Part shown: positions 18,195-49,466 of the stretch, in pieces
Layout: every line of letters begins with the position of its first letter
Position numbering within the stretch: position 1 is the stretch's first letter
Source: Cinnamomum chago
Lineage: Eukaryota; Streptophyta; Magnoliopsida; Laurales; Lauraceae
NCBI GenBank assembly: GCA_038049695.1
Contig: CP142451.1
Coordinates: 42,543,001-42,607,000, forward strand
DNA length: 64,000 nucleotides
Direction: 5' to 3'
Translations under genes and position numbers: made by a program
Notes under the pieces: generated by a model
What the model was told of the DNA's origin: nothing
What the model saw: the letters and a program-made list of their open reading frames with translations, nothing else
Databases searched by the model: none

Positions 18195-18476
18195 TGTAAC
18201 ATCCCGGAATTTCAAGGTTGTAATTAGCTTAGTTAATTGTGCTTTTAGTTAATTAAGCTTGTTTATAAGCTAAGTAGGTCCGATTAATCAATAGAGTCGC
18301 ATGTGCGAAGTTGGGTTGAGATTCGAGCCCGTTTGGGTACAGTAGGGGTGTCACGCCCCCAAACCGGAACCTCGGGTGCGCGAATGGGATTAATGGTGAT
18401 TATTTTTTCCCAAGATCCGCGTGTGTGAAGACAATACATTCCAATACACTCTGAATACATTCCAACAAAGATGAAT

Positions 18477-19024
18477 TTTTAAGTCATATCTAATAGTTTT
18501 CAAAATCCTTTGATTGCAATTTTATCATAATAGATTTGTATCTTTGCTCATTTAGTTACATTCTTTTTATGCAAATTGTTTTTGTTGTCTTACATTGCTT
18601 GGTTGGGTATGGTGTCATTGATTAGCATGTTTGTGCCTAACTTGGTATATATTTTCATTAATGCAAATTGATGATTATTTATGTGCTTTATAGTAAAATC
18701 TTTTATTTGAGCTTAATAAGTACATATGTGATTTAGTGTGCTAAGCTCATTTGGTATAATCTTCATATCCATTTTTCATTGCATTGTAAGCTTAGTACAT
18801 TTGCTATGACTGGAGATATTGCATGATAGATTAATGGATCATTTTAGATGAATTGGAATTAAACCATTGTTCTTAATAGGTATACCCATATATGAGATCC
18901 TTTTTCATCTATATGCGATCCATGATATCCTTCTAACTTCATACCTTATTGTGCTTGCATAGTTATATTCTTTATTGTTGATTTGGTATGAGTTAGATCT
19001 TGTGTGTTGATTGATCATCTCTAT
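18477..19024 (+). other. Element B stem-loop array, left part
   Basis: AT-rich and non-coding. Clear units: arms GAGCTTA (18709-18715) and TAAGCTC (18742-18748) around a TAAGTACATATG loop motif; and arms of 13 bp with one bulge (18932-18945 and 18985-18997) around CATAGTTATATTCTTT. These arms do not match the A units in sequence but keep the design of private stem and shared loop. Confidence 0.6.
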
Positions 19025-19039
19025 CACTACTAGAAAATA

Positions 19040-19380
19040 GGGTTTTTATATCGGTTACAAAAACTGCCTTATATCGGTTTTTCATATAACCGATATAATA
19101 TCTTCAGTCAAGGTTTTTTATATCGGTTAATATTTTTTTATATCGGTCAATTTTTTTTATATCGGTTACACAGGAACCGACATAATAATCTCTATATATA
19201 ATATCGGTTAGAAAATATATGATATTAATTTCTATATTTTATATCGGTTATTATGAAACCGATATTATATACACATATTTTATATCGGTTATTATGAAAC
19301 CGATATTATATACACATATTTTATATCGGTTATTATGAAACCGATATTATATACACAATGATTTTACATCGGTTTTAAAA
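19040..19380. repeat. CACTA left subterminal repeats, with 3 x 41-bp tandem
   Basis: Repeated TATATCGGTT and its complement. From 19242 to 19364 a 41-bp unit is repeated three times; each unit is itself an inverted repeat, TATCGGTT-attatg-AAACCGATA. Subterminal repeats of this kind are transposase-binding sites in En/Spm elements. Confidence 0.85.
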
Positions 19381-23823: not shown

Positions 23824-24314
23824 ATGTTTGTTAGGGATTTTGTATTTGCAATTTGATGGATGCATTTTCACTTTAGCATCATTTGAATTTTCACACTTGC
23901 ATTGTTTTAGAAAACCTTGAAATATGGTTTTATACTTGCATTGCTTTTAAGATTTGTAAAAGTTTTGTGTTATGCATGTTTTGTTTCTAAACTTGGATGC
24001 ATTGGTTTTAGAATCCAAACTCTTTTGAAAACCTAATTCTTTGAGCATTACTTTTGAGAAATCATATTGAGAATTTAGGTTTGTGTCTTGCATACATTCA
24101 TCACTTTCAAATCATTTTAGGCTTTTTGTGTTTCATGTTTTTAAACATCTTCGTTTGATTTAAAACATGTCTCCAAGCTTGGTTTAGTGGCCCAAAAATC
24201 CCCACAAAGAGAAACCTTCAAATATGCAAAAGTTGGGATTTTTTGTCCCAGGGGGTGGTCCGGCAGTGTCGCCGGTCGACCGGGAACACTGCAGGCCAAC
24301 TGGGCACCTGGAGC

Positions 24315-24435
24315 CCCAACGGTCATTTTTCTGACCGTTGTGTGATCCCGGTCGACCGAGACCTGTTTGCAGGTCGACCGAGACCTGTTTGCAGGTCGAC
24401 CGAGGACTAGCCGTTGGACTGTTTTTCATTATAAA
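24315..24435 (+). promoter_or_regulatory. Sirevirus promoter: paired MSA-like elements and TATA box
   Basis: CCCAACGGTCA (24315-24325) fits the plant MSA consensus YCYAACGGYYA. It is followed by an inverted partner (24332-24340), making a 9-bp inverted repeat with a 6-bp centre. A third element, TCCAACGGCTA on the complement (24408-24418), is also a full match and sits 11 bp before TATAAA (24430-24435). MSA elements bind three-repeat MYB (MYB3R) proteins in G2/M-expressed genes. The arrangement recurs in every Sirevirus LTR in the window. Confidence 0.6.
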
Positions 24436-25065
24436 GTCCATTCATTTTCTAACTTTCAAAAGGCTTGAACCATGAACTTTTGAGACCATATTGGAGCCAA
24501 AGAAAGGGGAAGAAGTTGGAAAGGCTAGAGGGCTATTTGGAAATCAATTGCTTGAGTTTTCAAAAGGTACATCTTACTAGTATTTTGATTTCCATTAAAA
24601 TGAAATCCATGCATGCTTAAATCTTTGTATTTTCACTTATGCATGATTTCTAGAGAAGTTTAGCAAACTCATTATCATCTTTGGAACATTAGAATGATTT
24701 GCAAACTCTCTTGACTAATTCACATGCTATTAGACTTTAATATTCATACAACTTGTTTAGTTCATTTCTTCAAAGTTGTTTGAATCTTTTATGTGATTAG
24801 TTTTATCTTCAATCATCATTTTCTAAGCTTTGATTTTAAAATGCATCAAGCATTCATTTAGGAGCTTCATTGTAGACATTGATTGAAGTAAAGCATTCAT
24901 ACACTTGTGCACACACTTTAACTTGTTTTAGTGTATGTTTGTAATTGGAATTTCACTTTCATATTAGCCTATTTAGAGGCAATCCAATTGTGCTTAAATT
25001 GTATCTCTTAGAGTGATCTTTTGTAAAGACACCTTCTTAGAGAAATCTTTATTTGTAAAGGTTAT

Positions 25066-25224
25066 TGCTTAGCCTAAGAAAAGCATTGTGTAAAGGTTAT
25101 TGCTTAGCCTAAGAAAAGCATCTTGTAAAGGTTATTGCTTAGCCTAGAAAAGCACATTGAGAGGTTGTTGTTTAGCCTAGAAAAACAACATTGTAAGGGT
25201 TATTGCTTAGCCTAGTAAAAAGCA
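25066..25224 (+). other. Five shared-loop hairpins near the end of the element A LTR
   Basis: Each is a short stem around a loop beginning AGCCTA. Four have the stem TGCTT/AAGCA (25066-25085, 25101-25120, 25136-25154, 25204-25224). The fourth in order has GTTGTTT/AAACAAC (25167-25189) with the same loop. Different but complementary stems around a fixed loop suggest a selected RNA structure upstream of the PBS. Confidence 0.65.
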
Positions 25225-25481
25225 TAAATAGTGGAAATCCGGTGGGGTGATTGGATCACAAGCAGGTAGTGGACGTAGGCATTGAGGCCGAACCACTATA
25301 AACCTTTGTATTGTGGTGTTTGCTTGTGGTGATTCATTTATTAGCTTCCACATCTTGTTTGATTAATATCATCACATGTGACTAGTTTATGTTAAGAAAT
25401 TAAAATTGGTCTAAATTGGTCATAGTTGTAGCACACCCTATTCACCCCCCCTCTAGGGTTAGGATCTCAAGGACTTTCAAT

Positions 25482-25493
25482 TGGTATCAGAGC
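25482..25493 (+). other. Primer-binding site, element A
   Basis: TGGTATCAGAGC two bases after the 5' LTR, matching initiator Met-tRNA as in Sirevirus C and gypsy D1. Confidence 0.95.
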
Positions 25494-25593: not shown

Positions 25594-26991
25594 ATGGACT
25601 CCACTATGCTAGACTTTGTAGATTCTTCTAGACCCCTCATTCTTCCTTCTATTGGAGATTCAAACCCTCAATTAAATGAATATCAATTTGATTCAAAAGA
25701 GGAAGAAAATGAGTATGATGAAGATGATCTTCAACAAGCCTATAATGAATTATATACATTATCTTCAAAGCTTGATAAGAGAAATAAAAGTTTAAAAGAA
25801 GAATCAAATAGACTAAATATAGAGCTAGTCTCTTCAAAAGATGAGCTTAGAGAGAAAGAAGAAGTCATAAATTGTTTAGAATCTAAGTTCATGATCTCTT
25901 TAAATAACCTATCTAACATTCAAGATGAACTAAAAGAATTAAAGATGGGTTATGATAATGTCAATAAGGAAAATTTAAATCTAAGAGATCAAATAAAAAG
26001 GCAAGACAAAGACTTTATCAATTTAGAAGGCAAGTTGATTAAAAGTAAGTTAAAAACCAAAGAACTTGGATCTAATGTTGTTAATGCACTAAAACTTGAA
26101 TTAAAACTTGCCAATGAAGAGCTAAGCAAATATAAGGAAATTGAAAATGAACTTTCAAAAGTTAAAAATGAAAATTCAATCCTTATAACCAAAGTCACTC
26201 AACCTGAAGGGTATAAACAAAAGTATGAGTGCAAGTTTACCCAAAGTGAAGAAATACTTGAAAAATTATTTAAATTGGGTAAATCTCATGGAGATAGGAC
26301 GGGTCTTGGATTTAATAGGAATATGTCATATGACCCTAAATTCACCAACACTTTTGTGAAAGGTGAGTCCTCTTTCTCTAGCACTCTTTCTCCAATGTCC
26401 AAAACTAAATGTCATTATTGTGGTAAAGTAGGATATTTCAAATTTGAGTGCAAACTAAGAAGAAGCCATGTGTCTAAACCCCTCATTGAACCCAAAAAGG
26501 TAGAATCTAAATCTATGAAGGGTAAGACACTAAAAATCAAGAAAGACTCCAAAAAGACTAAACAAGTTAAATCTATTAAAATGGAGTCTCCAAAGATAGA
26601 TTCTAAAAAGGTTAAACAAGTCAAACCAAGCTTGAAAGAATCTATGAACAAAAAGCTTCTCAACCTATCTCCCTTATATAAATCCATGAAAGAACTTTTG
26701 AATAAAGTAACAAAGTTAAATTTAAAATTCAAAAATCAAGTAAAGGGAGAAAATAAGAAGAAAAGAAAAGTGAATCAATCCCCAAAGAAACAAACTCACC
26801 AACATCAAAAGACTAATCACCAATCTAAGCTAAATTTAGTCAAATCTAAATATCATGGTGATAAGTTTAAATTGAAAATTTATCAAGTCAAATCTCCTTT
26901 AGTTGGTGAGAAGTCCAAACTAGACCTCAAAGTTCAACCCTCTCAAGACCTTAGGTGGATTCCAAAAGTTATTTACTTAGACAAACCTTAA
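25594..26991 (+). CDS. Gag-derived coiled-coil protein of element A
   Basis: 465 codons from the first ATG of an open frame (open from 25570). It matches the middle of Sirevirus C Gag: 'AYNELYTLSSKLDKRNKSLK' corresponds to 'AYEELYELCEVITKKNKSLK' in C. A long coiled coil (about residues 35-210) is followed by LFKLGKSHGDRTGLGF (C: FTLGNDKF...GIGF). The zinc knuckle CHYCGKVGYFKFEC has Tyr in place of the metal-binding His. A long Lys/Ser/Gln-rich basic tail follows and ends DLRWIPKVIYLDKP. The N-terminal UBN2-type Gag domain, the first knuckle and all of pol are missing. It could bind RNA or co-assemble with Gag from a full element; this is inference. The frame is open in a young element. Confidence 0.8.
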   Translation: MDSTMLDFVDSSRPLILPSIGDSNPQLNEYQFDSKEEENEYDEDDLQQAYNELYTLSSKLDKRNKSLKEESNRLNIELVSSKDELREKEEVINCLESKFMISLNNLSNIQDELKELKMGYDNVNKENLNLRDQIKRQDKDFINLEGKLIKSKLKTKELGSNVVNALKLELKLANEELSKYKEIENELSKVKNENSILITKVTQPEGYKQKYECKFTQSEEILEKLFKLGKSHGDRTGLGFNRNMSYDPKFTNTFVKGESSFSSTLSPMSKTKCHYCGKVGYFKFECKLRRSHVSKPLIEPKKVESKSMKGKTLKIKKDSKKTKQVKSIKMESPKIDSKKVKQVKPSLKESMNKKLLNLSPLYKSMKELLNKVTKLNLKFKNQVKGENKKKRKVNQSPKKQTHQHQKTNHQSKLNLVKSKYHGDKFKLKIYQVKSPLVGEKSKLDLKVQPSQDLRWIPKVIYLDKP

Positions 26992-27006: not shown

Positions 27007-28785
27007 TGACCAACCTATTCTTTAATAGTTAAATCATATTGTTGGTCATGTTGCTTTGCATTTTGTTCTTTCTTAGTTACATTTATTTAAATGCATTGTT
27101 TCTTTATGATCAATTGATTTTGTTTTCATGCACCATTCTTGTTACATATCATGGTTTTCAAAATCTTTTGATTATAATTTCATCATGTTTGATTTGCTTT
27201 TTGCACACATATGTCTTGCATTGCATTTCTTTACATGATTAATTGATTGTGATTTTAAAAGCTTTCATAGCTAATTTATTCATGATCAATTGTTGTTGAA
27301 TCATTTGTGTAGATGTCATAGTTAGATTATTTGAACAAATGATTTGAATCAATTCAAGTTTTTCCATAGACTTCTAAGTTATATTTTTATATGGAAAATC
27401 ATTGTTTTGAAAAATCAACTTGTATGTGTTTCTTTTAAGTTATATCTTTTAAAATACAATGTTGAAAATTGATCTTCAAATTCATTCTTTTTATGCTCAT
27501 TGTTGGATTTTGTTTATCAAAATGATTTGAAGATTGGTTGAATGGAAATGCTCTATAACATCATTAGTTATATTCATCTAAGCATGTTCCATGTTCACAT
27601 TTCCTTTTCTTTTGGTTTCATTATCTTAGAAATGGAGATGTATGTTGTTTGCATATTTGCTTATTTAGTTATTCTTTTTATATGCAAATGACTATTGGTT
27701 CCATGTATGGTTGTGATCTTAGTTATATTTGTAGAAACCATACTAGAACCCAAATCCATCCTCTATGCACTCTAGTCATATCTTTTTGGATGGTTATGAT
27801 GTTGATTCATGGATATTTTCTTAGTAATGTCATTCTTATACATGTTTCAACTTCATAGTAGTGTTCTTAATCATATGAAACTCTTTGAAACCCATTTCTC
27901 ATATTCCTATATGTTTGATGGATATCTTAGATGTTGAATTCATATGATTTTGACACTTTGGAAATTGCATGCATTACCAAGTAATAGCCTTTTGCATTGC
28001 AATTTGCCTTGTTCATCACTATGCTCATTAGTCATATCTTTAAAAGTGATGAATATGCATTTATGATGCTTGATGGGATTTTGGGTTTGTCACATCCTTG
28101 CTTTTAATCATGTTGTCATATTCAATTGGTTTCATTTGGTATAACTTTCCATTGATTTCATATCCGATTGATATCTTATCGTGTGTATGTGATAGACCTT
28201 GTGTACATTGGATTGATCTTGATAGTTATATGTTTTCATTCCATGTCACATTCCATTAGCATCATAATGTTCATGTTTGCCACCTCTCTTGCTCATATAG
28301 GTATATCTCATGACCTCCATATTTATGTGTTCATAATATTGGTTGGTTATTAGTTGAGGTTGGCTTCATGCTTGAATTTCATTTCACTCATCTTGCACAT
28401 GATAGTCATATTTTTTGATTGAATGAAATGATTTCAAAACTTACATAGCATATGATTTTCATAAGTTATATTGATTGATGCTATGTTTAGTAAACCCCAT
28501 TGCATCATGGATAGCTCTAATTTGGATTTTTCCTAATAGTTATATTTTTAAATCCATTTTAGAGTGATTGTGTTTAATAGACTTATCTTTAAATCTCAAT
28601 TGGTATTCTTTGTTTTTCCAATTGGTATCCATGATTGCTTTTCTCTTTAGACCTTGCTTTCTTTTGGGAATTTGATCATATGAGCCTTATAGTTAAATGA
28701 ATCTAATCCTTTCCTTGAAGTTGACCCTCATTTGGTTAAACCATCTACTTCTTGAACCAAATAGTTATACCTTGTCAAAAGTTTG
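27007..28785 (+). ncRNA. Array of about 20 stem-loops with a common loop motif (element A)
   Basis: Non-coding, AT-rich, between the gag-like ORF and the PPT array. A motif near TAGTTATATYTTT recurs about every 50-70 nt in one orientation, mostly directly before the right arm of an inverted repeat whose arms differ from unit to unit. Perfect pairs: 27007-27014/27041-27048; 27057-27063/27089-27095; 27299-27308/27335-27344; 27360-27368/27390-27398; 27648-27656/27680-27688; 28012-28020/28045-28053; 28444-28451/28478-28485; 28523-28529/28550-28556. G·U-tolerant or bulged pairs: 27241-27252/27280-27291; 27415-27425/27454-27465; 27544-27552/27581-27590; 27697-27712/27736-27750; 28200-28216/28236-28250; 28379-28390/28420-28431. 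Element B shares the design. Function unknown. Confidence 0.65.
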
Positions 28786-28799
28786 ACAAAAGAAGAGAA

Positions 28800-29437
28800 T
28801 GGATTGAGGGGGAGTGTAAACCTTCATAGGAAGTATTAGTTTTGATCAAATTGACCCTTGGATTGACTTTGAACCCTTAGAGTCTTCTTCCATACATGAT
28901 AGCCTGTTATGATTATCATTTTCGATTTCTTTTGTTAACAGGTGCTACTAAAAGGTATTTTCCTTGTTTCATGTGTGTAGGTACCTTTGCAATTTAATGG
29001 CAAAGGGGGAGAGAACTGTCAAGTACTCAAAGATCTCCTATTCTTCAAAAGGGGAGAGAGCATTCAAGTTCTCAAGAAGGGTGAAGAGAATGTCCAAGCT
29101 TCCTAAGGGGAGAGTTGTGTATGATCTTCTACAAGGGGAGAGAATGCATATCTTGCCAAAGGGAGAGAGAGGCATGGTCAAAGGGGGAGAGCAAATAGAA
29201 GAAAGAAAGCTTGGAGCTAAAGAAGATGCTTGGCCATAGAGAGGAAGATGAAAAGAAAGCTTGAAGGATGATCAAGCTCCAAGCATCAAGAAGATTGAAG
29301 AAAAGAGCCCAAGAGCCCAAGCTAAGAGGAGGAGCATCCAAGAAGATTTCAAGACTTGTCCAGCTTAGGGGGAGCTGAAGACTTGGTGTGTTATTTCAAT
29401 GATAAGTAAGTTGCCATCAAATTGCAAAGGGGGAGAT
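28800..29437 (+). other. Polypurine-tract array before the 3' LTR of element A
   Basis: About eight GGGGGAG-type purine runs (near 28809, 29002, 29048, 29106, 29132, 29158, 29180, 29365), then the final CAAAGGGGGAGAT (29425-29437) touching the LTR. Repeated PPT-like motifs upstream of the 3' LTR are a described signature of Sireviruses. Confidence 0.8.
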
Positions 29438-32400
29438 TGTTAGGGATTTTGTATTTGCAATTTGATGGATGCATTTTCACTTTAGCATCATTTGAATTTT
29501 CACACTTGCATTGTTTTAGAAAACCTTGAAATATGGTTTTATACTTGCATTGCTTTTAAGATTTATAAAAGTTTTGTGTTATGCATGTTTTGTTTCTAAA
29601 CTTGGATGCATTGGTTTTAGAATCCAAACTCTTTTGAAAACCTAATTCTTTGAGCATTACTTTTGAGAAATCATATTGAGAATTTAGGTTTGTGTCTTGC
29701 ATACATTCATCACTTTCAAATCATTTTAGGTTTTTTGTGTTTCATGTTTTTAAACATCTTCGTTTGATTTAAAACATGTCTCCAAGCTTGGTTTAGTGGC
29801 CCAAAAATCCCCACAAAGAGAAACCTTCAAATATGCAAAAGTTGGGATTTTTTGTCCCAGGGGGTGGTCCGGCAGTGTCGCCGGTCGACCGGGAACACTG
29901 CAGGCCAACTGGGCCCCTGGAGCCCCAACGGTCATTTTTCTGACCGTTGTGTGATCCCGGTCGACCGAGACCTGTTTGCAGGTCGACCGAGGACTAGCCG
30001 TTGGACTGTTTTTCATTATAAAGTCCATTCATTTTCCAACTTTCAAAAGGCTTGAACCATGAACTTTTGAGACCATATTGGAGCCAAAGAAAGGGGAAGA
30101 AGTTGGAAAGGCTAGAGGGCTATTTGGAAATCAATTGCTTGAGTTTTCAAAAGGTACATCTTACTAGTATTTTGATTTCCATTAAAATGAAATCCATGCA
30201 TGCTTAAATCTTTGTATTTTCACTTATGCATGATTTCTAGAGAAGTTTAGCAAACTCATTATCATCTTTGGAACATTAGAATGATTTGCAAACTCTCTTG
30301 ACTAATTCACATGCTATTAGACTTTAATATTCATACAACTTGTTTAGTTCATTTCTTCAAAGTTGTTTGAATCTTTTATGTGATTAGTTTTATCTTCAAT
30401 CATCATTTTCTAAGCTTTGATTTTAAAATGCATCAAGCATTCATTTAGGAGCTTCATTGTAGACATTGATTGAAGTAAAGCATTCATACACTTGTGCACA
30501 CACTTTAACTTGTTTTAGTGTATGTTTGTAATTGGAATTTCACTTTCATATTAGCCTATTTAGAGGCAATCCAATTGTGCTTAAATTGTATCTCTTAGAG
30601 TGATCTTTTGTAAAGACACCTTCTTAGAGAAATCTTTATTTGTAAAGGTTATTGCTTAGCCTAAGAAAAGCATTGTGTAAAGGTTATTGCTTAGCCTAAG
30701 AAAAGCATCTTGTAAAGGTTATTGCTTAGCCTAGAAAAGCACATTGAGAGGTTGTTGTTTAGCCTAGAAAAACAACATTGTAAGGGTTATTGCTTAGCCT
30801 AGTAAAAAGCATAAATAGTGGAAATCCGGTGGGGTGATTGGATCACAAGCCGGTAGTGGACGTATGTAAGACCCCGAACCGAGTGAACCCGATTAGTGCT
30901 AATTAAGTTGCGTGTTAGTGCTAAGCTTGATTAGTGTTTTTGGTTAAGTTGGGTTTGGAATAGTTTTGATTCTAGTCTTGGGCTTTTGAATGCTTTGGTA
31001 GGTTGTGGGGCCCTTTGGGGGTCCCCTTTCCGGCTTTGCTTTTGCTTGGTGGATTTTCCCGATTTGTTGTGAATTGTGTTTTTGGCCCGTTGCATTCATC
31101 TTGTGGATTCTTACAACTTTCATGTTGATCCCGTGTTCATTCGAGGCCCCGAAACCCAATTTTCATAGCCGGAGGGCAAAACAGTCATTGCCCACCAAAT
31201 CTGTACCCAAAACTTGATATTCTCGAAACCCGCGAAACTTACACTTTTCGGAAAGTAGATATTTCGACGAACATTTCTTCCTCCTTCGTCGAATTCATCC
31301 GAGGACCCGAGAGAGATGATATCAGCCCATTTAGTTTCATTAGTTGTGGGACCCAATCCAACCCAACTCTTTAGCTAACAAGAGAAGCCATTCCATTCAC
31401 TTCATCTTTCATTTTCCAGCACAACCATTGGAGTCTAGGGTTTTCTTGGTTTCTCACCTTCTTCTTGCTTCTTCATCTCAAATCCTCACCAATCTTGCAC
31501 TAAACTCAAAAGGGAACTCATCATCTTCTTCCTCTCCTTGCAAGCTTCACCTTGATACTATTCTTGGAGCAATCTCCCCATCTTGAGACCTTCTTTGAAC
31601 TAGTTCTTCTCATTTGGAGGTCATCCAAGTAAGTGATCCCTCTCATCTTCTAGATTGTTAATCTTCTAGCCTTAGGGAAGCTACATTTGCATTTTTGAAA
31701 GGTTTCATTGTCATTTCATGGTTTGACCCATTTTAGGGTTGTTTTTGGGGATTTTTGATTGTAGCTTGGAAGTGATCTTGAGAAGTGAGTAGAGGCTTGT
31801 TTATTGCTAGCTTGGACTTGAGGCAAGTGAATGTTTGGAGGTTTTTAAGTTTCAAATGATGTGGTGAAGCATTGATGGATTTTTATGCTTTCATTGATTG
31901 CATTTATTGGTTTTTCATGGTTGAAATAAATGATATTTACACCTCTTGATAGCCTCATTTAATGTCTTGGAAGTATGTAAATAAGTCATATTGTTCATAG
32001 TTTTCCTTGGTTGATCATGTGTTGGAAGGAAAGGAAAAAGGGAGAAAAATCAAAGTTCCCGGACCTGCACTGCGCCCAGGTCCGATCGATCGGACGTGCA
32101 GACCGATCGATCGGACTGACTTTTAACAGTAAGGGTTTTTGGGCCGATCGATCGGACTCTGTGCAGAAATTTCGGCCGATCGATCGGACCCTGTTCAGAA
32201 AATTTTGGCCGATCGATCGGACCGAAGGTGGATTTTGAGATTTTTATTTTTCCCTTGGTTTTAGGTGGGACCTTGGCTACCCTTTTTGGACTATTTGGAC
32301 TATGGGTGAGATGTCTTGAGCCGACACTTCTCACGGTTAGTTTGGTGACATCGAAGTTCAATCCATTTCAATCTTGAACGGGACGGAATGACGCAATAAC

Positions 32401-34131
32401 TTCTTTATATCCAAATATAAGTCTTTTGCCTTGGTTATCGCGAACTCCATTCCTTTCGATGACTGGATAGGTTGGTCGATGTTCCCGAATTAATGTCATG
32501 CCTAGGATGGACCGTTTATAACCTTGATTTTCCTAGTATAAAATCTAGTGATAACCATAAGCTCATTTTAAGTTTGAAAATCGTAAAAGTGCATAAGGAG
32601 CCCGGATGTCTTCAAACTCAAGGAGTACCAAGTCTTTTCCATAATCGACATACGGGACCCCTATTCACTCAATTAGATCTTAAAATCATTATCTTTCCCG
32701 ATTTAGTATAGTTCATTACATTTCTCTATTTCCAAGATTTACATTTACATGACTCGTTTTCCCCGAAAGCATTGTGTACACTTGAAATGGTTACTTGACC
32801 CGAAGTGCATTGCACCACATGATATGTCAGTGTGCCCTTGAGCACCCCCGTCTTGCCCGTTTGATTATATACTTGTACTTGATTTACTTGCATTGTATCG
32901 ATTGTATTTGACCTATGAGTCGGCACCACTAAGCTTGGATAACCTCGTTGGTTTGATCCACCGACTTGGAGATCCCCCTCTTGTCCCGCCAGCTGCAGTT
33001 TGGATCCCGATACCCGGTCATTACCGTGGTCTTGTCCCGATACCGCAGATTGCTACTGTGGTCCCCGATGCCCGGCTCGCTACCGTGGTCATGTATAGTA
33101 TATTATTTATATGAGATCCCCTGTTTCTCCTCACCTTGAGTGACTGAGATCAGGGCCTAGTTATTGCTCTATCACCTTAGTGATAGAGGACTTAGCTTCG
33201 TGTGGTCGCCATCTTGCTTGTTCCCGATCCCTTGGTTACCTCATATGTTTTATCTTGTCTACTTGTTTTATAGCAAATGATTTACCTGTTTTATGAGAGT
33301 TATTGCTTAATCAGATTTACACGCTTTCCAAGAGATTTCTTACATTATATATTGTTGTATCCTTGCTTTCTCTTGCCAGACCGTCGTGTCTGATCCTTTG
33401 CTTTGGTACTCAGGTCCCGTTGCCGGCTTCCTTGAGGAGGAGCCAGAGGAGGCGGTAGGTGAACCGCAACCTCTAGTTGAGTGGCGTGCTGACGATGTCA
33501 TGTAGACATCAGATTGCTTTGAGAAGCGTAACATTTTGGGAGATATACTTAACCATTCTTTGGGTTATTGTTTTGTGTATATTGGCCTTTGTTGGCCTCT
33601 ATTTTTGGGAATGTAATTAAATGATATTTTTGTCTAACTTTAACAACTTTTGGGAATCATGCTATAGATCATTGCTCATTCTGATACAGTCTTGATATTT
33701 GATGTTAATGCTTGCATGGTTGAGATAGTCTATTACTTGATTTGCTACACGCTTCCGCACTCAAAAGAAATATTCATGCAGGGTTGTGATATCCTCACCG
33801 CGGACACCTGTGGGAAATTAAATAAGTTCTATAGATGGTGGATGTAGATAATCATCATCAATCATCATCCACTATCTAATGTGTCCCGATCCCGGATTGG
33901 AAATTCCCGGTTCGGGGTCGCGACAACGTAGGCATTGAGGCCGAACCACTATAAACCTTTGTGTTGTGGTGTTTGCTTGTGGTGATTCATTTATTAGCTT
34001 CCACATCTTGTTTGATTAATATCATCACATGTGACTAGTTTATGTTAAGAAATTAAAATTGGTCTAAATTGGTCATAGTTGTAGCACACCCTATTCACCC
34101 CCCCTCTAGGGTAGGATCCCAAGGACTTTCA
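29438..34131 (+). repeat. 3' LTR of element A, interrupted by solo LTR S3
   Basis: Starts TGTTAGGGATTTTG and ends AAGGACTTTCA. Segments 29438-30864 and 33931-34131 join at TSD ACGTA to give 1628 bp, nearly identical to the 5' LTR but with one copy of the 22-bp unit instead of two. Confidence 0.95.
30865..33925 (+). repeat. Solo LTR S3, gypsy (Tekay-like), inside the 3' LTR of A
   Basis: 3061 bp, TGTAAGACCCCG to GGGGTCGCGACA, flanked by TSD ACGTA (30860-30864 and 33926-33930). It carries the TTCGACGA/TCGTCGAA inverted repeat (31263-31293), GTAAGT (31629-31634), a CCGATCGATCGG cluster (32081-32225), GC-rich CCCGATACC repeats (33005-33090) and a TATA-rich block (33093-33112) before TTTCTCCTCACC. 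It is the innermost and so youngest insertion of its nest. Confidence 0.95.
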
Positions 34132-34136
34132 ATGTT

Positions 34137-37439: not shown

Positions 37440-37863
37440 ATATATAATATTAAATTGGTTACAGAACAAACGATATAATACAATCCCAAAAAACCGATAT
37501 AACAAAGCCCTTTATAACCGTTATTATAAATAATTTTTATATCGGTTTCACTCTTTTTTATATCGGTTTTATAGTAATGTATGCTATAATTTTAGTTTCA
37601 AAACACATCAGTTCTCCGAAAATCGATATTATAAATATTTTTTATATCGGTTTCACTTTTTTTATATCGATTTTACCGTAATATGTGTTATAATTTCAAG
37701 TTTAAAAGACATTAGTTGTCCAAAAACCGATATGAAATAATACACATATTATATCGGTTATAGTTATTTATTATATCGGGGATACTTATATCGGTTTGAA
37801 GTTTACTGAAAAACCGATATAATAGGTCTTTTATATCGGTTTTTAGCCGTTATAAAAACCCTT
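37440..37863. repeat. CACTA right subterminal repeats
   Basis: Many TATATCGGTT and AACCGATAT copies up to the terminal inverted repeat, mirroring 19040-19380. Confidence 0.88.
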
Positions 37864-37876
37864 TTTTCTAGTAGTG

Positions 37877-38632
37877 TATGCAAATGTCAATTCGTTCCAT
37901 GTATGGTTGTGATATTAGTTATACTTGTAGAAACCATACTAGAACTCAAATCCATCCTTTATGTTTTCTAGTCATTTTTTTTATGGATGGTTATGATGTT
38001 GATTCATGTATATTCTCTAAGTAATGTCATTCTTATACATGTTTCAACTTCATAGTAGTGATCTTGATCATATGAAACTCTTTGAAATCCATTCCTCGTA
38101 TATCTATATGTTTGATGGATATCTTAATTGTTGAATTCATATGATTTTGTCACTTTGAAAATTGCATGCATTTCCAAGTTATACCCTTTTGCATTGGAAT
38201 TTATGTTGTTCATCACTTGCTCATAGTTAAATCATTAAAAGTGATGAATATCCATTTATGATGCTTGATGGAATTTTGTGTTTGTCACATTCTTGCTCTT
38301 AATCATGTTTTCAAATTCAATTGGTTTCAATTAGTATCATTATCGATTGATTTGATGTCTTATCTTGAGTATGTGATAGACCTTGTGTACATTGGATTGA
38401 ACTTCATAGTCATATATTTTTGTTCCATGTCACATTTCATTAGCATCATAATTTTCTTGTTTGCCACCTCTTTTGCTCATATAGGTAAATCTCATGACCA
38501 CCATGTTTATGTATTCATAATCTTGGTTGGTTATTAGTTGAGGTTGGCTTCATGTTTGAATTTCTTTTCACTCATCTTGCACATTATAGTCATATTTTTT
38601 GATTGAATGAAATGATTTCAAAACATTCATAG
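37877..38632 (+). other. Element B stem-loop array, middle part
   Basis: Homologous to A at 27680-28440. Units with arms kept: GGTT..TATGGTT / AACCATA (37895-37940), TTCATCACT / AGTGATGAA (about 38209-38248), GTTGATTCATG / CATGTTTCAAC (about 37999-38047). In the TTCATCACT unit the loop changed from TTAGTCATATCTTT (A) to ATAGTTAAATCATT (B) while the arms stayed complementary. Confidence 0.6.
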
Positions 38633-41600: not shown

Positions 41601-41878
41601 AACTTTAACAACCATTGGGAAACATGCTATAAATCATTGCTCATTCTGATACAGTATTTTAGTCTGGTGTTATTATTTTTATGACCAAGGATGGTTTGAC
41701 TATTTGATTTGCTACATGCTTCCGCATTTAACAGAAATATTCAATTATGGTTATGATATCCTCACCGCGGACACCTGTGGGAAATTAAATAAATCATATG
41801 GTATTATTAAGCAGTTGTGGATCATCCTAACATCAATATTAGTCCCGATCCCGGATCTCTCGGTCTGGGGTCGCGACA
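38633..41878 (+). repeat. Solo LTR S4, gypsy (Tekay-like), inside element B
   Basis: 3246 bp, TGTAAGACCCCG to GGGGTCGCGACA, TSD CATAG (38628-38632 and 41879-41883). It carries a TTCGACGA/TCGTCGAA inverted repeat (39044-39074), a 96-codon ORF (39127-39417) ending at the GTAAGT donor-like site (39414-39419), a CGGCTAACCG cluster (about 40005-40440) and the GC-rich repeat/TATA block (about 40970-41090). Confidence 0.95.
39127..39417 (+). CDS. Recurrent small ORF in gypsy LTR (S4 copy)
   Basis: 96 codons after GTGGG at 39127. It shares LPHLxSFPLVPFVxRTLHxK with the S1 ORF (7591-7860, minus), and its stop falls in the donor-like GTAAGT. S2 and S3 have shorter frames at the same place, whereas D2 is broken. 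It may be an upstream ORF in LTR transcripts, or just conserved DNA that happens to be open. No known domain. Confidence 0.3.
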   Translation: MGPKLPLLTKENPSLLSHSLSILVPAQLSLGFALVLFFFFFLFLHPQATPRAHQSNIGDHQSLPHLSSFPLVPFVRRTLHSKTFIELTIAIRGPSR

Positions 41879-41883
41879 CATAG

Positions 41884-42439
41884 CATATGATTTTCATAGT
41901 TAAATTAATTGATGCTATGTTTTGTAAACCCCATATCATCATGGATATCTCTAATTTGGTTTTATCCTAATAGTTATATTCATTTTAACTCCATTTTAGA
42001 GTGATTGATTTAATAGTCTTATCCTTGAATCTCAATTAGTATTCTTTATTTTTCCAATTGGTATCCATGATCGCTTTTCTCTTTGACCTTGCTCTTTATA
42101 TTGGTAATTTTGATCAAACTGAGCTCTATAGTTAAACGAATCTAATCCTTCTCTTGAAGTTGACCCTCAATTGGTAAAACCATCTTCTTCTTGCACCTAA
42201 TAGTTAAATCTTTGTCAAAAGTTTGACAAAAGGAGAGAACGGATTGAGGGGGAGTGTAAACCTTCTTAGGAAGTATTAGTTTTGATCAAATTGTCCTTTA
42301 TATTGGCTTTGAACCCTTAGAGACTTCTAACCATACATGATAACCTGTTATGTATTTCATTTTCGATTTCTTTTGTTAACAGGTGCTTCTAAAAGGTATT
42401 TTTCTTATTTCATGTGTGTAGGTACCTTTGCAATTTAAT
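41884..42439 (+). other. Element B stem-loop array, right part
   Basis: Homologous to A at 28446-28985. The TATAGTTAAA, AATAGTTATATT and AATAGTTAAATC motifs continue with partly eroded arms. It ends at GAGGGGGAGTG (42246), the first purine run of the PPT array. No gene. Confidence 0.55.
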
Positions 42440-42822
42440 GTCAAAGGGGGAGAGAACATTCAAGTTGTCTAAAAGGGAAGAGAATGTCCAAACTTCCTAA
42501 GGGGAGATATTGTATGATGTTCTACAGGGGGAGAGAATGCATATCTTGCCAAAGGGAGAGTGCATGGTCAAAGGAGGAGAGTCGAAAGAAGAAAGCTTGG
42601 GAGTTAAAGAAGATGCTTGGCTAATGAAATAAAGATGAAAAGAAAGCTTGAAGAATGATCAAGCTCCAAGCATCAAGAAGATTGAAGAAAAAGACCTAGA
42701 GCCCAAGCTAAGAGAAGGAGCATCCAAGCGATTTCAAGCCTGTCCAGCTTAGGGGGAGCTGAAGACTTAGTGTGTTAATTTCAGTGATGAGTAAGTTGCC
42801 ATCAAATTGCAAAGGGGGAGAT
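42440..42822 (+). other. Polypurine-tract array, element B
   Basis: Purine runs near 42443, 42497, 42527, 42555, 42573 and 42750, then the final CAAAGGGGGAGAT at 42810-42822 next to the LTR. Same order as in element A. Confidence 0.8.
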
Positions 42823-44716
42823 TGTTAGGGATTTTGTATATTGCAATTTGATGGATGTATTATCATTTTAGCATCATTTGAATTTACACACATGCATTGA
42901 TTTAGAAAAACTTGAAATCTTGATTTATACATGCATTGTTTTTAAGACTAGTAAAAATATTGAATTATGCATGTTTTGATTTTAAACTTGGATGCATTTT
43001 AAATTTGGAAAGAAAAATTTTAAATCAAGCTAGCCTATGTTTTAAATCTTTCAAATCAATTTAGGCTTTTTATGTTTTCATGGTTTTAATCCTCTTAGTT
43101 TGATTTAAACCATGTTTCCAAGCTTGATTCAGTGGCCCAAAAGTTCCCTTCAAGAAATACTTTGAAATATGAATTTTAAGGGAATTTGGTCCCTGGGCCC
43201 GGGTTGACCTGCAGTGTGCTCGGTCGACCGAGCCCATAGACCCGGTCGACCAAGCCCACGGTGGGTCGACCGGCTAAAAAGCCGTTGAGCTTCCTTTCAA
43301 ACGGTCAATTTTATGACCGTTGAGCGCTAGGCCGACCGGGGAAAGGCCAGGTCGACCGGGGAAGAGCCGTTGAGCACTTTTTGGCTATAAATACTAGTTC
43401 ATTCCTTTGCCAAAAGTTAACAATTTTTAGGCCCTCCTTGAGATGTTTTGAGGCCAATCAAAGGGGAATGAGCTAAGGGATGAAATGGGTCATTTGGAAA
43501 GCTAAAGCTTGGTTCCATTGAGTTAAATCACTAAGTAAGCTTTATTTTCCTTAACCATATGTTGTCATGCTTTGCTTTATTGTTGGTAAATCTTTTCTAG
43601 CATGATAAACTATGTTTTTTTGTGTCCTTAACATGTATATGTTTTGAATTGATTTATTGTTTTGGATGCATCACCTTGATTCAATCTAAGTAGTACTTAA
43701 ATTGGTATATCTAAGTAAATCATGTTAATGAAAACATCTTTGAAATTATATGTAACATGATTCATATACTTGGTTGAATCTTTGATTGTTGTTTTTCGTC
43801 ATAAGAAAATCACTTTCAAATCTATCTTATGTTTTGGATTCAACAACTTCACAAATCATATGTACTTTTGCTTTAAAGTTTCACAACTTGTTTAGCATTG
43901 ATAGGTATATCATTTTCAAGTTGAATTTATAATTATATATGATTTGTCCCCTAACTTCAATCAAATCTAATTTTGTGTTTTATGCTTATAGCATACACAT
44001 ATTGAGCTACATTGTTACTTTGATTGAAATCCCTATGCATCACATGTTTTGTTCTTAGAATTTCACAACTTGTTTAGAATACACAAGTATATCTTTCACA
44101 AGTTATTTTTAACATGTGATTAGCATTCTTTCCTCAATCATAAATGTTTTTATGAGCTAAAACTTTTAAAAGCCTTTGGCATACATTTATGAGCTTTCAT
44201 TTTCAAATTGATTGAGGACATCATACATACACATTGTGCATTCATCTTTGCATTCATAGTATGTGTGCGAATTAGATTTTCACTTTCATATCCGCCTAAT
44301 TAAGAGGCATTGTAATGAGCTAAATTGTATCTCTATCAAGTGTATTCTAGACACTGCTTAGAGAGATAACCAACCTTTGATTGAAGAGGTTATTGCTTAG
44401 CCTAAGAAAAGCATAATGTAGAGGTTATTGTTTAGCCTTGAAAGCATAATGTAAATGTTATTGCTTGGCCTATTGAAAAGCATAAATAGTGGAAATCCGG
44501 TGGGGTGTTGGATCACAAGCCGGTGTGGGTGTAGGCATTAAGGCCGAACCACTATAAATCCTTTGTGGTGATTGTTTTTGTTAGTTTCCGCATTTAATTT
44601 GATAATCATCACTAGTGGCTAATGTAATTTAAAGAAGTTAAAATTGGTCATTATTTGTCACTAATTTGTAGCTCACCCTATTCACCCCCCTCTAGGGTTC
44701 GGATCCAGGACTTTCA
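42823..44716 (+). repeat. 3' LTR of element B
   Basis: 1894 bp, TGTTAGGGATTTTG to CCAGGACTTTCA. It carries GTCGACC palindromes (43205-43365), the AACGGTCA/TGACCGTT inverted pair (43300-43321), GAGCCGTTGAG then CTATAAATAC (about 43363-43395), and AGCCT-loop hairpins (44390-44490). It is closest to the solo LTR at 13523-15427. ACATC follows it, but the left TSD is deleted. Confidence 0.92.
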
Positions 44717-45969
44717 ACATCAATTTTCCAACAACATCCATTCTAACCTCCTCCCACAATATCACATCCAAACACAATGAATAGAGGGAAGGAAATCACT
44801 ACACACAAGAGTACATTTGAGATAAAAACAAGATAACATTGAATGCTATAAATCAAAACTTTTCAATGACAATAGATACACTATCAAGGCTCTTTCATGA
44901 ACATTTATTTCAAGTCAATGCATTAAATGGGCATGAGTGGAAAACAATACAAGAAATCATATTCCTTATAAAATCATTGAAAGCTCATAAAAACCAATTC
45001 ATCCACTTGCCTTGGGTCTCTAATCAAGCAAATCAAGCTACTAACCAAGCTCTTTCAAGAATCCTACAAGCACAAACAAAACCCCAAAAAACAAACCCTA
45101 ACATGGGTCAAACAATGAATGAAGAAGAAAGAACTTTCAATAATGGAGATGAAGCTTCTCTAGGGTCACAAGAATACATATCTAGGAGATGAAGAAGATT
45201 GCTTACTTGGAAGGTCCTCTAATGGCAAGAGTTAGCTCAAGGAGAGTCTCAATGTTAGTGGATTTCTCTACAAATGGTATTAAAAGGAAGCTTGCAAGGT
45301 GGGGAAGAAGATGATGACCTCCATTTCTTGATCGGTGCAAGATTGGTGTGGATTGGAGATGGAGAGAGTAAGAAGAAGAAGAGAAAGTTGCAAGAGAAAA
45401 CCCTAGGCTGCCTTTTGTGCTGGAAAATGGAGATGGAAGAGAAGGGAGATGGGTTCCTCTTATATACGCAAGTGAGAATGAGTCTCACTACTAGAAAATC
45501 TCTTTGAGCTGAAATCATGGTTTTCAGGACTTCGGATGAATTCGACGAAGAAGGGAAAAATGATTGCCGAAATATCTAGTTTCCAAAAAGTATATGTTTC
45601 ACGGGTTTTGAGGATATCAAGTTTGGGTACAGATTTAGTGCACAATGACTGTTTTGCCCTCAATGTTAGGAAAGTCGGGTTTCGGGACCTCGGACGGGTA
45701 CGAGATCAGCATAAAAGTTGTAGGGGGTTAACAATACAAATAAAACAGGATTAAAAAAATGAATGCAAGAATCTCCGATAAATCACCAAGTAAACGCAAG
45801 GTCATATAAGGAACCCCCAAAGGGTCTCGCTAGTCACTAAGGCACTCAAAATTCCCCAAAACCATAGAAAAACCATTCTAGCTCACAACTCAACCAAACA
45901 AACACTAAACCAACTTAGAGAAACTAATCCACAAATACATGAAATTAGGGGTCGGGGTCTCACAAGGGG

Positions 45970-47393: not shown

Positions 47394-47495
47394 CCGTTGC
47401 CACTACTCGTGGGACCGGAATACAGAACCGTTGCCACTACTCGTGGGACCGAAATACAGAACCGTTGCCACTACTTGTGGGACCGGAATACAGAA
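47394..47495. repeat. Three 34-bp tandem repeats in S5
   Basis: Unit CCGTTGCCACTACTCGTGGG followed by 14 more bases, at 47394-47427, 47428-47461 and 47462-47495, with one or two changes each. A partial unit resumes after element C (56180). They correspond in place to the CCCGATACC repeats of S1, S3 and S4. Confidence 0.92.
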
Positions 47496-47496
47496 C

Positions 47497-49050
47497 TGAA
47501 AGTCCAAGATCGAATCCTAGAGGGGGGGTGAATAGGGTGAGCTCAAAGTCCTAGACCAATTTTAATTCTTTTAGCTTTTAAGTCTTTTATGTTTTGAAGA
47601 AGAATAATGAAATCAACCAAGAGAGCATAATCCATAAAAAGAAAGCATAAAGACAATCACCATAACACAAGCACATATAGTGGTTCGGCCAAATTGCCTA
47701 CATCCACTCGCGGTACACCTACCGGTATTCACTAACTTCAATTAAGGTTTAGGATCACCTCAAACCTTACAATCAACACTATGCTTTTCAAAGCTAAGCA
47801 TAAACCTTTACAACATATGCTTTTCAAGGCTAAGCATGAACCTTTACAACAATGAACTTTTCTCTTAAGAATTATGCCTAACAATGCATGGATAAAGAGA
47901 ACAATAAAGTGCAATTGAGTGCCTCTAATTAGGCTAATTAGAAAGTGAAAACTTAAGTTCTAGAAACATGCATGTGAATGACAAAGTTTATGTAAAATGC
48001 ATTTTCTAGAAATAACTCTTTCTCTTTGAAAAGATAAAAACTAAAATGATGCAAAGATGTTTATCATATATTGGAGAAAGAGTTGTATGTCTAACACATG
48101 TGATTAACAATGAGAAATAACTTTTTTTCAAGAAAGATGTTCTAAAGTCTAACAAGTTGATTTTTGAAACAAGAAAGTAAAATCATGTGTAACATAGACC
48201 ATATGTTGTATTCATAGCATATGAGATTACTAAAGTGTTAAGCATGTTATGAAAGACAACATTCTAAAAGAAAAGCAACTAGTTAATCATGCATTGAGGA
48301 AGATCAAAGATTTGAAACAAAACATGATTTTGAAAAGACTAGGATTAAAGAAAGCACACCCATTTGAAGATCAAAGATTGACTTAGTGGAATGGCTTCAT
48401 AATCCCTTTGAAAATGCTCTTGAGAAGTTGCTAATCCTTGGCCTCAAAGGTCTCTCAAATATCAGCCACTTTCTTCAACCAAAAAGCCACTTTTTATAAA
48501 GATAAAGTTGCCAACGGCTAGTCGCAGGTCGACCTACCTACAGGGGCAGGTCGACCTACCACACACAACGGTCAAAAAATTGACCGTTGGAGCTTTCTGG
48601 ACCCAGTCGACCTGCAGAGAGGTAGGTCGACCTGCCCCTGGGTAGGTCGACCTACCTCACTGCAGGTCAACTGCCTGGGATGAAAAAAATCCAATTTTTT
48701 GCAAATTGAAGGGCTCTTTCCAGGGGACTTTGAGGACCATTTCCAAGCATGAAATCATGACTGATAGAAGATGAAACATGAAATTCTAAAGCCATGAAAA
48801 CTCCAAATGAAAATAATGATTTTAAAGATAGAAACTTTGGAAAGCTTGGATGGATTTTGAAATAAAAAACTCCATGAACTGAAGAGGCAACTTGAATATG
48901 AAAACCATGCATATCAAATGATAAAATCAACGATCAAGAATGAGAAATATGGATGATGATCCTATGAATAAAAACATGAATGAATGAGAGGACAAGCTTT
49001 ATGAAATTGATTGCATCCTATCAAATTGCAACAAAACAAAAACTCTAACA
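47497..49050 (-). repeat. 3' LTR of Sirevirus C
   Basis: 1554 bp. In sense it starts TGTTAGAGTTTTTG (49050) and ends GGACTTTCA (47497). It contains AGCCTTGAA-loop hairpins with ATGCTT/AAGCAT stems (47781-47801 and 47817-47837), a CAACGGTCAA/TTGACCGTTG inverted repeat (48566-48589), AGGTCGACCT palindromes, and a TATAAAA box (near 48495) beside CCAACGGCTA (48511-48520). Confidence 0.95.
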
Positions 49051-49350
49051 ATCTCCCCCTTTGCAATTTGATGGCAACTCTTGAAGCTTGAACACTCTCT
49101 CAATCTCCTCTTAAACTTGAACAGCAACAACTTTGGATATTTAAGGAGCTTTGGATAATTAAGGAGCTTTGGATATTTGGGAGCATTTGGATCTTTTGGA
49201 ACTTTGGATTTTCCTTGCAGGAGCGACGACAAAAGACGACCAACCTAGAAGCTATACACAATATGCACTCTAGGCAAAGCTACTCCCCCTCAATCAAAGC
49301 AACCCTTGAAATCTTCTCCCCCTCAATTGGAGAATTCTCTCCCCCTTTGA
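49051..49350 (-). other. Polypurine tracts, Sirevirus C
   Basis: The final PPT is the complement of ATCTCCCCCTTTGC (49051-49064). Further upstream copies have the cores CTCCCCCTC near 49283 and 49316 and CTCCCCCTTTG near 49338 (plus-strand reading). The space between pol and the LTR is only about 400 bp and has no stem-loop array, unlike A and B. Confidence 0.85.
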
Positions 49351-49466
49351 CATCTAATTGCAAAGGAGCCTGCCCATCAAAGATAAAACACATAACCTTG
49401 TTAGTAGCACCTGTTTATAAGAGATATAAAAATAAGATGAGGAACAGGTGATTAGCCAACAAGAAA

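Follow-up and report, generated by a model that had tools for sequence, protein, structure and literature searches.

We identified an array of hairpins in a 64,000-nucleotide stretch of the Cinnamomum chago genome (contig CP142451.1, positions 42,543,001 to 42,607,000; hereafter the window), located at 27007..28785 on the plus strand within a long terminal repeat (LTR) retrotransposon that we call element A. The array is U-rich (44.6% T), its hairpins have private stems, and most of its loops present one shared motif, as supported by stem counts, folding, motif counts and flank pairing. Element A is a Sirevirus-derived, pol-less, non-autonomous retrotransposon, and the array lies immediately downstream of its open reading frame (ORF) for part of Gag. 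We propose, at a probability of roughly 0.45, that the array is a multivalent protein-binding plus-strand RNA that is probably bound by Gag or its nucleocapsid (NC) domain and used for packaging.

The array exceeds chance expectation in stems, fold energy and motif counts alike, each being above that of dinucleotide shuffles. When perfect stems enclosing a loop of 6-45 nt were counted against 200 such shuffles, the array contained 19 stems of at least 7 bp (shuffle mean 8.0, maximum 17), 12 of at least 8 bp (mean 2.2, maximum 7) and six of at least 9 bp (mean 0.62, maximum 3); the perfect stems are 7-10 bp long and enclose loops of 14-44 nt. Folding with a span of 70 gave -365 kcal/mol versus -270 kcal/mol for 60 shuffles (z -9.6 on the plus strand), and the control regions of element A gave z -3.0 (ORF) and z -0.15 (polypurine tract (PPT) region). 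The motif WAGTYAYAT occurs exactly 11 times on the plus strand of 27007-28785 (shuffle mean 0.15) and not at all on the minus strand (mean 0.11), and with one mismatch it occurs 23 times on the plus strand (mean 3.75, maximum 10) and five times on the minus strand (mean 3.24, maximum 9). With one mismatch allowed, it is loop-borne in 12 of the 19 stems of at least 7 bp, versus a mean of 0.38 and a maximum of 4 in 200 shuffles, and in all 12 its centre falls at 0.50-0.79 of the loop, never 5' of the middle.

The strongest test is flank pairing, in which composition and motif are kept constant and the only question is how well the two flanks of a given motif match. Among the 11 exact motifs, duplexes between flanks of the same unit averaged -16.5 kcal/mol versus -8.7 kcal/mol across units, and 0 of 5000 permutations was as good; seven other copies of the array were concordant (permutation p <=0.0002 on energy and <=0.025 on run length). 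In addition, the motif was more open than 9-mers of the same composition in the three copies folded (0.56-0.67 versus 0.37-0.40). Two exact extended motifs 30-60 nt apart were found 83 times genome-wide, compared with 0 for the reversed control pattern, and all 83 stretches resemble one neighbouring-unit pair of the element A family. A search of 4227 Rfam families returned a single match at E <=1, to a small nucleolar RNA (snoRNA) model at 24.2 bits versus a gathering score of 50, and no relatives turned up in viral contigs. These results bear out most of an original prediction, made from the letters of the window, of about 20 stem-loops with private stems and a shared motif, in one orientation and on the 3' side of the loop, as a structured region of elements without pol: we list 23 units, and shuffled sequences, the check that had been proposed, clearly did not give as many motif-centred stems. 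The predicted recurrence every 50-70 nt did not hold up, the real spacing of the motif (one mismatch) being 20-180 nt with a median of 67.

Pairing in the array is under purifying selection in the replicating lineage. The copies compared all come from one plant genome (1.06 Gb), in which 40 of 6653, 40 of 4808, 91 of 8320 and 40 of 2607 candidates were scored in the respective searches; 70 of 74 loci were kept at a best matched piece >1000 bases and 83 of 86 at >850 bases, duplicate rows (L001, L009, L014 and L019) were left out, and copies of a second subfamily, the B-type, mostly contribute only the second half to reference-anchored alignments. In 71 aligned rows, stem columns of the alifold consensus changed at 0.0156 per site and row versus 0.0423 elsewhere, 2.7-fold fewer, and on internal branches at 0.0028 versus 0.0114, fourfold fewer. 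For stems defined by Watson-Crick runs the change rate was 0.0128-0.0219 versus 0.0346-0.0385 with the L078 rows excluded, since this template test let gaps pair, which voids those rows and may slightly affect other non-reference templates. Motif columns changed at an intermediate rate (0.032; median 0 in the first four positions), and the joint fold of the 71 rows reached -442 kcal/mol versus -249 (standard deviation 9) kcal/mol in 10 column shuffles.

That the array acts at the level of plus-strand RNA is likely but not proved. Our comparison of G.U with A.C used 84 rows and 220 pairs, in stems of at least 6 bp defined by Watson-Crick runs and present in at least 40% of rows, with expectations taken from the mutation spectrum of unpaired columns. 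In strand-neutral stems, observed/expected counts on internal branches were 30/96 for G.U, 11/74 for A.C and 54/247 for other mismatches, and on terminal branches 104/199, 63/197 and 155/529, respectively; G.U was thus retained over A.C at p 0.02 (internal) and 0.001 (terminal). The direction was the same in 12 of 12 overlapping settings (six stem sets by two branch classes), with p<0.05 in eight. A.C was purged about as strongly as other mismatches and G.U to an intermediate degree, which is the pattern expected of plus-strand RNA. A comparison of RNA folds of both strands adds only a hint in favour of RNA, with 34 G.U/Watson-Crick polymorphic pairs on the plus strand (shuffles 22.2) and 16 on the minus strand (17.6). 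A G.U excess of 187 to 83 in an RNA-folded alignment was discarded as proof of RNA, being largely a product of the folding method.

Compensation between arms is modest and is carried by a handful of units. The first half of the array has diverged in B-type copies, and when arms were swapped between A-type and B-type copies, the native arms paired better in 48 of 48 swaps for unit U2, in 45 of 45 for U4 and in 89% of 54 for U7. By eye, the subfamilies differ by T-A to A-T in U2 and by C-G to T-A in U4 and U7; since the swapped rows are related, this represents roughly one compensation event per unit. In arm permutation, z was below -2 in seven of 27 units and above 2 in none, compared with four and three, respectively, of 98 decoys.

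Beside the array, element A encodes a 465-aa ORF (25594..26991, plus strand) that corresponds to the C-terminal part of a Sirevirus Gag, with a coiled coil, one zinc knuckle and a basic tail. It is the sole ATG ORF of at least 150 aa in the element and has no Pfam match at E 0.001, so the gag-pol coding capacity of an autonomous Sirevirus is absent; no match to the capsid domain (UBN2) was found, and the zinc knuckle was unmatched even at E 10. When compared with the Gag encoded by a gag-pol element of the window, the ORF aligns to residues 367-587, with identities of 43% (83 columns) and 24% (237 columns); this region covers the coiled coil and the second zinc knuckle and leaves the UBN2 part outside. 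Four relatives were present among 7990 scored candidates from protein collections, two of which cover 99-100% of its length at 54-55% identity; at the zinc-knuckle cut-off of 20.8 bits, relative P0002 passes (24.4) and P0001 fails (16.7). In 30 copies, omega on internal branches (N/S versus neutral expectation) was about 0.53 and one stop change was seen versus 13.6 expected, with terminal branches biased against stops because the 29 other copies were among the best-scoring by protein. The ORF was stop-free in 70 of the 91 best-scoring copies (91 scored of 8320 candidates).

Sirevirus descent is further indicated by cis-acting sequences. The hallmarks of this lineage are multiple PPTs, a PPT/LTR inverted repeat and LTR palindromes (PMC2829016; here and below, cited papers are represented by the parts of their text available to us), and all three are present in element A. 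Inspection by eye of 28808-29440 showed multiple AGGGGGAG tracts clustered upstream of the 3' LTR and an AT/TG terminal junction, and a PPT/LTR inverted repeat was likewise seen by eye, formed by CATCAAATTGCAAA upstream of the terminal PPT and TTTGCAATTTGATG inside the beginning of the LTR; the LTRs contain repeated palindromic boxes of the CGGTCGACCG type. The hairpin array comes in addition to these three hallmarks and is distinct from them; the available part of PMC2829016 does not mention it.

The presumed helper is the gag-pol element of the window, which occupies the minus strand from 47494 to about 56177 and has two ORFs. Its sequence is that of element A from the terminal PPT to within the first part of the LTR, and the junction between its LTR and primer binding site is nearly identical. 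We infer that this element or a close relative is the plausible source of enzymes for element A. The gag-pol element has the exact motif on neither strand and no motif hairpin of at least 7 bp on its own strand, and its coding pieces have no excess structure (z 0.6 and 0.5).

A constant loop motif held on private stems is characteristic of recognition by a protein that contacts the loop and uses the stem only to hold it, and the presence of many such sites beside a nucleocapsid-like Gag gene, in an element needing the particles of another, makes packaging through Gag/NC the first hypothesis. In the mechanism that we propose, the genomic RNA of this pol-less, Sirevirus-derived element would form some 20-24 AU-rich stem-loops in its 3' part, each stem being required merely as a stem and hence drifting privately, and most loops display a UAGUUAUAU-type motif. 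The loops might then be occupied by many molecules of a single RNA-binding protein, the likeliest candidate being a Gag nucleocapsid domain, supplied either by the element's own C-terminal Gag fragment or by the Gag of a partner, to which the fragment could bridge with its coiled coil and zinc knuckle. Such multivalent binding would recruit element A RNA into particles of an autonomous Sirevirus with the same PPT, attachment and primer-binding junctions, in analogy to the dispersed packaging signals of small RNA viruses. A more specific version, in which pol has been replaced by about 20 Gag-binding hairpins and a self-encoded nucleocapsid-like adaptor, such that element A enters helper particles by packaging-signal-mediated assembly and perhaps out-competes its helper, is more tentative, and we regard it as no better than possible.

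The main rival is that the array is occupied by a host RNA-binding protein and acts in the nuclear export, stability, translation or localisation of unspliced RNA rather than in packaging. Flank pairing, the motif in the loop and the G.U evidence fit this explanation equally, and it is favored by the location of the array 3' of the ORF, the U-rich motif and the absence of an array from the gag-pol element of the window. However, nothing specific indicates a host protein, the ORF that element A has retained is the RNA-binding part of Gag, and about 20 sites would be many for an export element; we consider this explanation rather unlikely.

Several observations weigh against the proposed packaging array. 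In Ty1, the cis-acting sequences for packaging are located close to the 5' end, and deletions may take away as much as 5 kb of internal sequence (PMC4974528), so that a packaging role would not be typical of a block in the internal 3' region. Should the helper package its RNA with no array at all, then the array is unneeded for packaging as such. The zinc-knuckle His is replaced by Tyr in the window copy (26434-26436, codon 281), although it is His in 29 of 30 copies. As to structure, the minus strand of the array folds almost as well as the plus strand (z -8.6; span 70, 60 shuffles) and is nearly as stable in the joint fold of the 71 rows, and the LTRs are also structured (z -4.8 for the LTR of element A and -6.9 for the LTR plus linker of the gag-pol element). 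Four of the 12 overlapping G.U versus A.C settings were not significant, and raw counts were without strand bias, at 41 G.U to 38 A.C in strand-neutral reference stems and at 31 to 28 among one-wobble stems over 21 copies (1.0 and 0.58 per array in shuffles of element A). The wobble argument by which the original prediction had suggested RNA is thus not sustained, whereas its suggestion of an RNA level is supported by the spectrum-corrected retention of G.U over A.C. Finally, swaps between A-type and B-type arms revealed no net compensation in U1 (mean +0.56 kcal/mol), U3 (+0.16) and U8 (0.0) and none in U6, the 5' window of which was misplaced; an R-scape-like test with tree-placed substitutions gave three pairs at E<1, 0 of them stem pairs; and two Watson-Crick types were present in three of 276 stem pairs versus 2-5 in slid controls. 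Because the stems hardly vary, the power to detect column covariation is low. Of the outcomes that the original prediction had counted against itself, a lack of column covariation was observed and random decay of the arms was not, since the arms are conserved and some units are compensated.

Some of these points would also be expected if there were no selected RNA structure, the inverted repeats having arisen by mutation (template switching in hairpins or gene conversion) or serving a role at the DNA level. The nearly equal folding of the minus strand, the nil column covariation, the similar raw G.U and A.C counts and the inverted repeats held by the LTRs are all consistent with this explanation. 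Nevertheless, conservation of the arms across copies in sequence, beyond mere self-complementarity, the single orientation of the loop motif and the spectrum-corrected tolerance of G.U above A.C render it improbable. RNA-RNA contact, in which loop-loop pairing would serve genome dimerisation or co-packaging with a partner RNA, would suit loops that are repeated and relatively accessible, and kissing-loop dimerisation has been described in Ty1 (PMC5454406). The shared motif, however, is self-complementary only in a four-base core (ATAT), which would make loop-loop contacts weak, and we judge such contact quite improbable. Stems of 7-10 bp are too short for a typical microRNA precursor. Although secondary structure of maize transposable elements correlates with small RNAs (PMC10760457), it is very improbable that stems of 7-10 bp with loops of 14-44 nt form a small-RNA source or decoy or an anti-silencing structure, which would leave the shared loop motif without explanation.

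Our literature searches found no paper on such a hairpin array in any retrotransposon. Near in concept to the array read as a packaging device are the dispersed packaging signals of MS2, satellite tobacco necrosis virus (STNV), parechovirus and hepatitis B virus (HBV) core RNA (PMC7612645, PMC6281560), with which it shares multiple stem-loops bearing a common loop motif. The viral signals are dispersed over genomes, whereas the hairpins of element A occupy one 1.8-kb non-coding block of a retrotransposon and have a putative protein contact. Large retrotransposon derivatives (LARDs) are gypsy-like. The folds of LARDs (Sukkula and its relatives) are also near in concept (PMC7215508), and the conserved RNA secondary structure of the LARD internal domain is paralleled in element A by conservation of pairing, with column covariation not found; the available part of that paper makes no mention of recurring hairpins that have a loop motif in common. 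In contrast to LARDs, which encode no protein, element A keeps a part of Gag in an ORF that is mostly stop-free and has the internal-branch omega given above. BARE2 is described as gag-defective and otherwise equipped, and we know of no hairpin array in it. It forms a parasite-helper pair with BARE1, as a non-autonomous element using the proteins of a relative (PMC8704663). TR-GAG elements, one of which (ATCOPIA63) moves in the Arabidopsis ddm1 mutant, have LTRs and a single gag-type ORF (PMC8704663), and element A likewise has a single ORF, but one that holds only the C-terminal Gag part, with no UBN2 match and no recognisable capsid half; a hairpin array in TR-GAG elements is unmentioned in the available part of the same source. 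In our judgement, how helpers recognise non-autonomous LTR retrotransposons is largely open, and a dense one-motif array would turn the recognition code into something specific that can be tested, in a family for which a first look at this plant genome gave 6653 candidates (40 scored). If true, the packaging proposal would carry the concept of packaging signals beyond small RNA viruses into retrotransposons and would account for a pol-less element retaining an RNA-binding part of Gag.

The remaining features of element A are all on the plus strand. The 5' LTR (23829..25480; self-comparison, sequence and stems) begins with TGTTAGGG, ends with ACTTTCA and contains palindromic GGTCGACC boxes, and the adjoining primer binding site TGGTATCAGAGC (25482..25493; sequence) has a core that is also found in the gag-pol element. 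Downstream of the array, a purine-tract cluster of AGGGGGAG and variants (28808..29436; sequence, with the definition of PMC2829016) reaches the terminal PPT beside the 3' LTR, which self-comparison resolved into two pieces, 29438..30864 and, past a nested insertion, 33926..34133. The 5' LTR and the 3' LTR pieces differ by seven mismatches in 1635 bases, gaps besides, indicating that this copy is young. The LTRs of element A (23829-25480) and of the gag-pol element (47494-49466) hold more inverted repeats than shuffles, which GTCGACC boxes explain in part, box arms being present in just three of the ten and four of the eight LTR stems that reach 8 bp, and on the element's strand neither LTR contains the exact motif. 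Upstream of the PPT cluster, a common hairpin occurs in element A (28903-28942), in a B-type copy (L048:2085-2126) and in the gag-pol element (49408-49450, minus strand), with arms CCTGTTA/TAACAGG, or CACCTGTT/AACAGGTG in the gag-pol element, and loops that differ among the three.

Of the 23 listed units, which are hairpins or nested pairs on the plus strand, 14 bear the motif when one mismatch is tolerated and 11 bear it exactly; nine of the 23 matches found at this tolerance fall outside the listed loops. The series begins with an 8-bp hairpin at 27007..27048 (motif at 27026, one mismatch), a 7-9 bp hairpin at 27057..27095 (27074, exact) and a two-part hairpin at 27104..27177 with an inner stem at 27116-27122/27159-27165 (27139, one mismatch), followed by a 7-bp hairpin at 27182..27239 in which the motif is absent within one mismatch. 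The hairpin at 27240..27292 (sequence and fold) has 13 bp and a degenerate motif and, as originally predicted, its 12-bp pair 27241-27252/27280-27291 needs two G.U pairs. Unit U2 (27296..27347; 10-13 bp, motif at 27319 with one mismatch) is compensated between subfamilies, and it precedes a 9-bp hairpin at 27360..27398 with arms TTTTCCATA/TATGGAAAA (27376, exact) and U4 at 27415..27464, which has 11 bp with a bulge (27437, exact) and differs between subfamilies as described above. A 10-bp hairpin at 27471..27535 lacks the motif within one mismatch, and a bulged hairpin at 27542..27592 has an exact motif at 27565 that is partly paired in the model fold of element A. U7 at 27597..27640 has 8 bp including one G.U pair and shows the C-G to T-A difference noted above, and the next hairpin (27644..27692; 9-13 bp) has a motif-like TAGTTATTC at 27666 and contains the arms TTTGCATAT/ATATGCAAA at 27648-27688. 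Exact motifs are present in the 8-bp hairpin at 27705..27743 (27720) and the 6-bp hairpin at 27756..27793 (27773), and are absent from the interrupted hairpin at 27794..27857 and the nested hairpins at 27872..27944. An 8-9 bp hairpin at 27961..28006 has the loop AAGTAATAG, replaced by AAGTTATAT in several relatives, and a 9-11 bp hairpin at 28010..28055 (28029, exact) contains the arms TTCATCACT/AGTGATGAA at 28012-28053, so that all three nine-base arm pairs quoted in the original prediction are present. Further exact motifs occur in the interrupted hairpin at 28199..28249 (28223, partly paired in the model fold), in a hairpin of 8 bp and more at 28372..28438 (28403), in a 9-bp hairpin at 28443..28486 (28463) that is compensated in the permutation test, and in a hairpin of 7 bp plus an outer stem at 28514..28565 (28537). 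The last unit, a 7-bp hairpin at 28597..28624, has no motif and is also compensated in the permutation test.

In unpaired columns of the array, the commonest changes were A-to-T (626) and T-to-A (544), followed by T-to-C (406) and C-to-T (382); a C-to-T bias is usually expected in plant repeats. Whole-unit deletion was dropped as an argument, with too few events and two alignment gap runs: gap runs break a mean of 1.0 stems versus 1.1 under random placement, a 350-nt deletion in five copies ends a few bases from unit borders, and a 171-nt deletion in two copies takes one unit arm. The pieces at 18471-19024, 37877-38632 and 41878-44717 can be read as parts of a single B-type element belonging to the family of element A. 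Element A itself lies within an insertion splitting this B-type element at 19024/37877, and another insertion interrupts the B-type element at 38632/41878. Both edges of the insertion that contains element A (19046-19374 and 37516-37789) have repeats with the arms TATATCGGTT/AACCGATATA, which are possibly DNA transposon ends. Within one LTR of the gag-pol element, 54780-55298 is a 259-bp tandem duplication (99% identical). Head-to-tail arrays of the family were seen at G000:C6:38702456-38750350, C6:57947835-57989127 and C12:26734478-26755459, with a period of about 5.2-6.0 kb, up to nine copies and perhaps shared LTRs.
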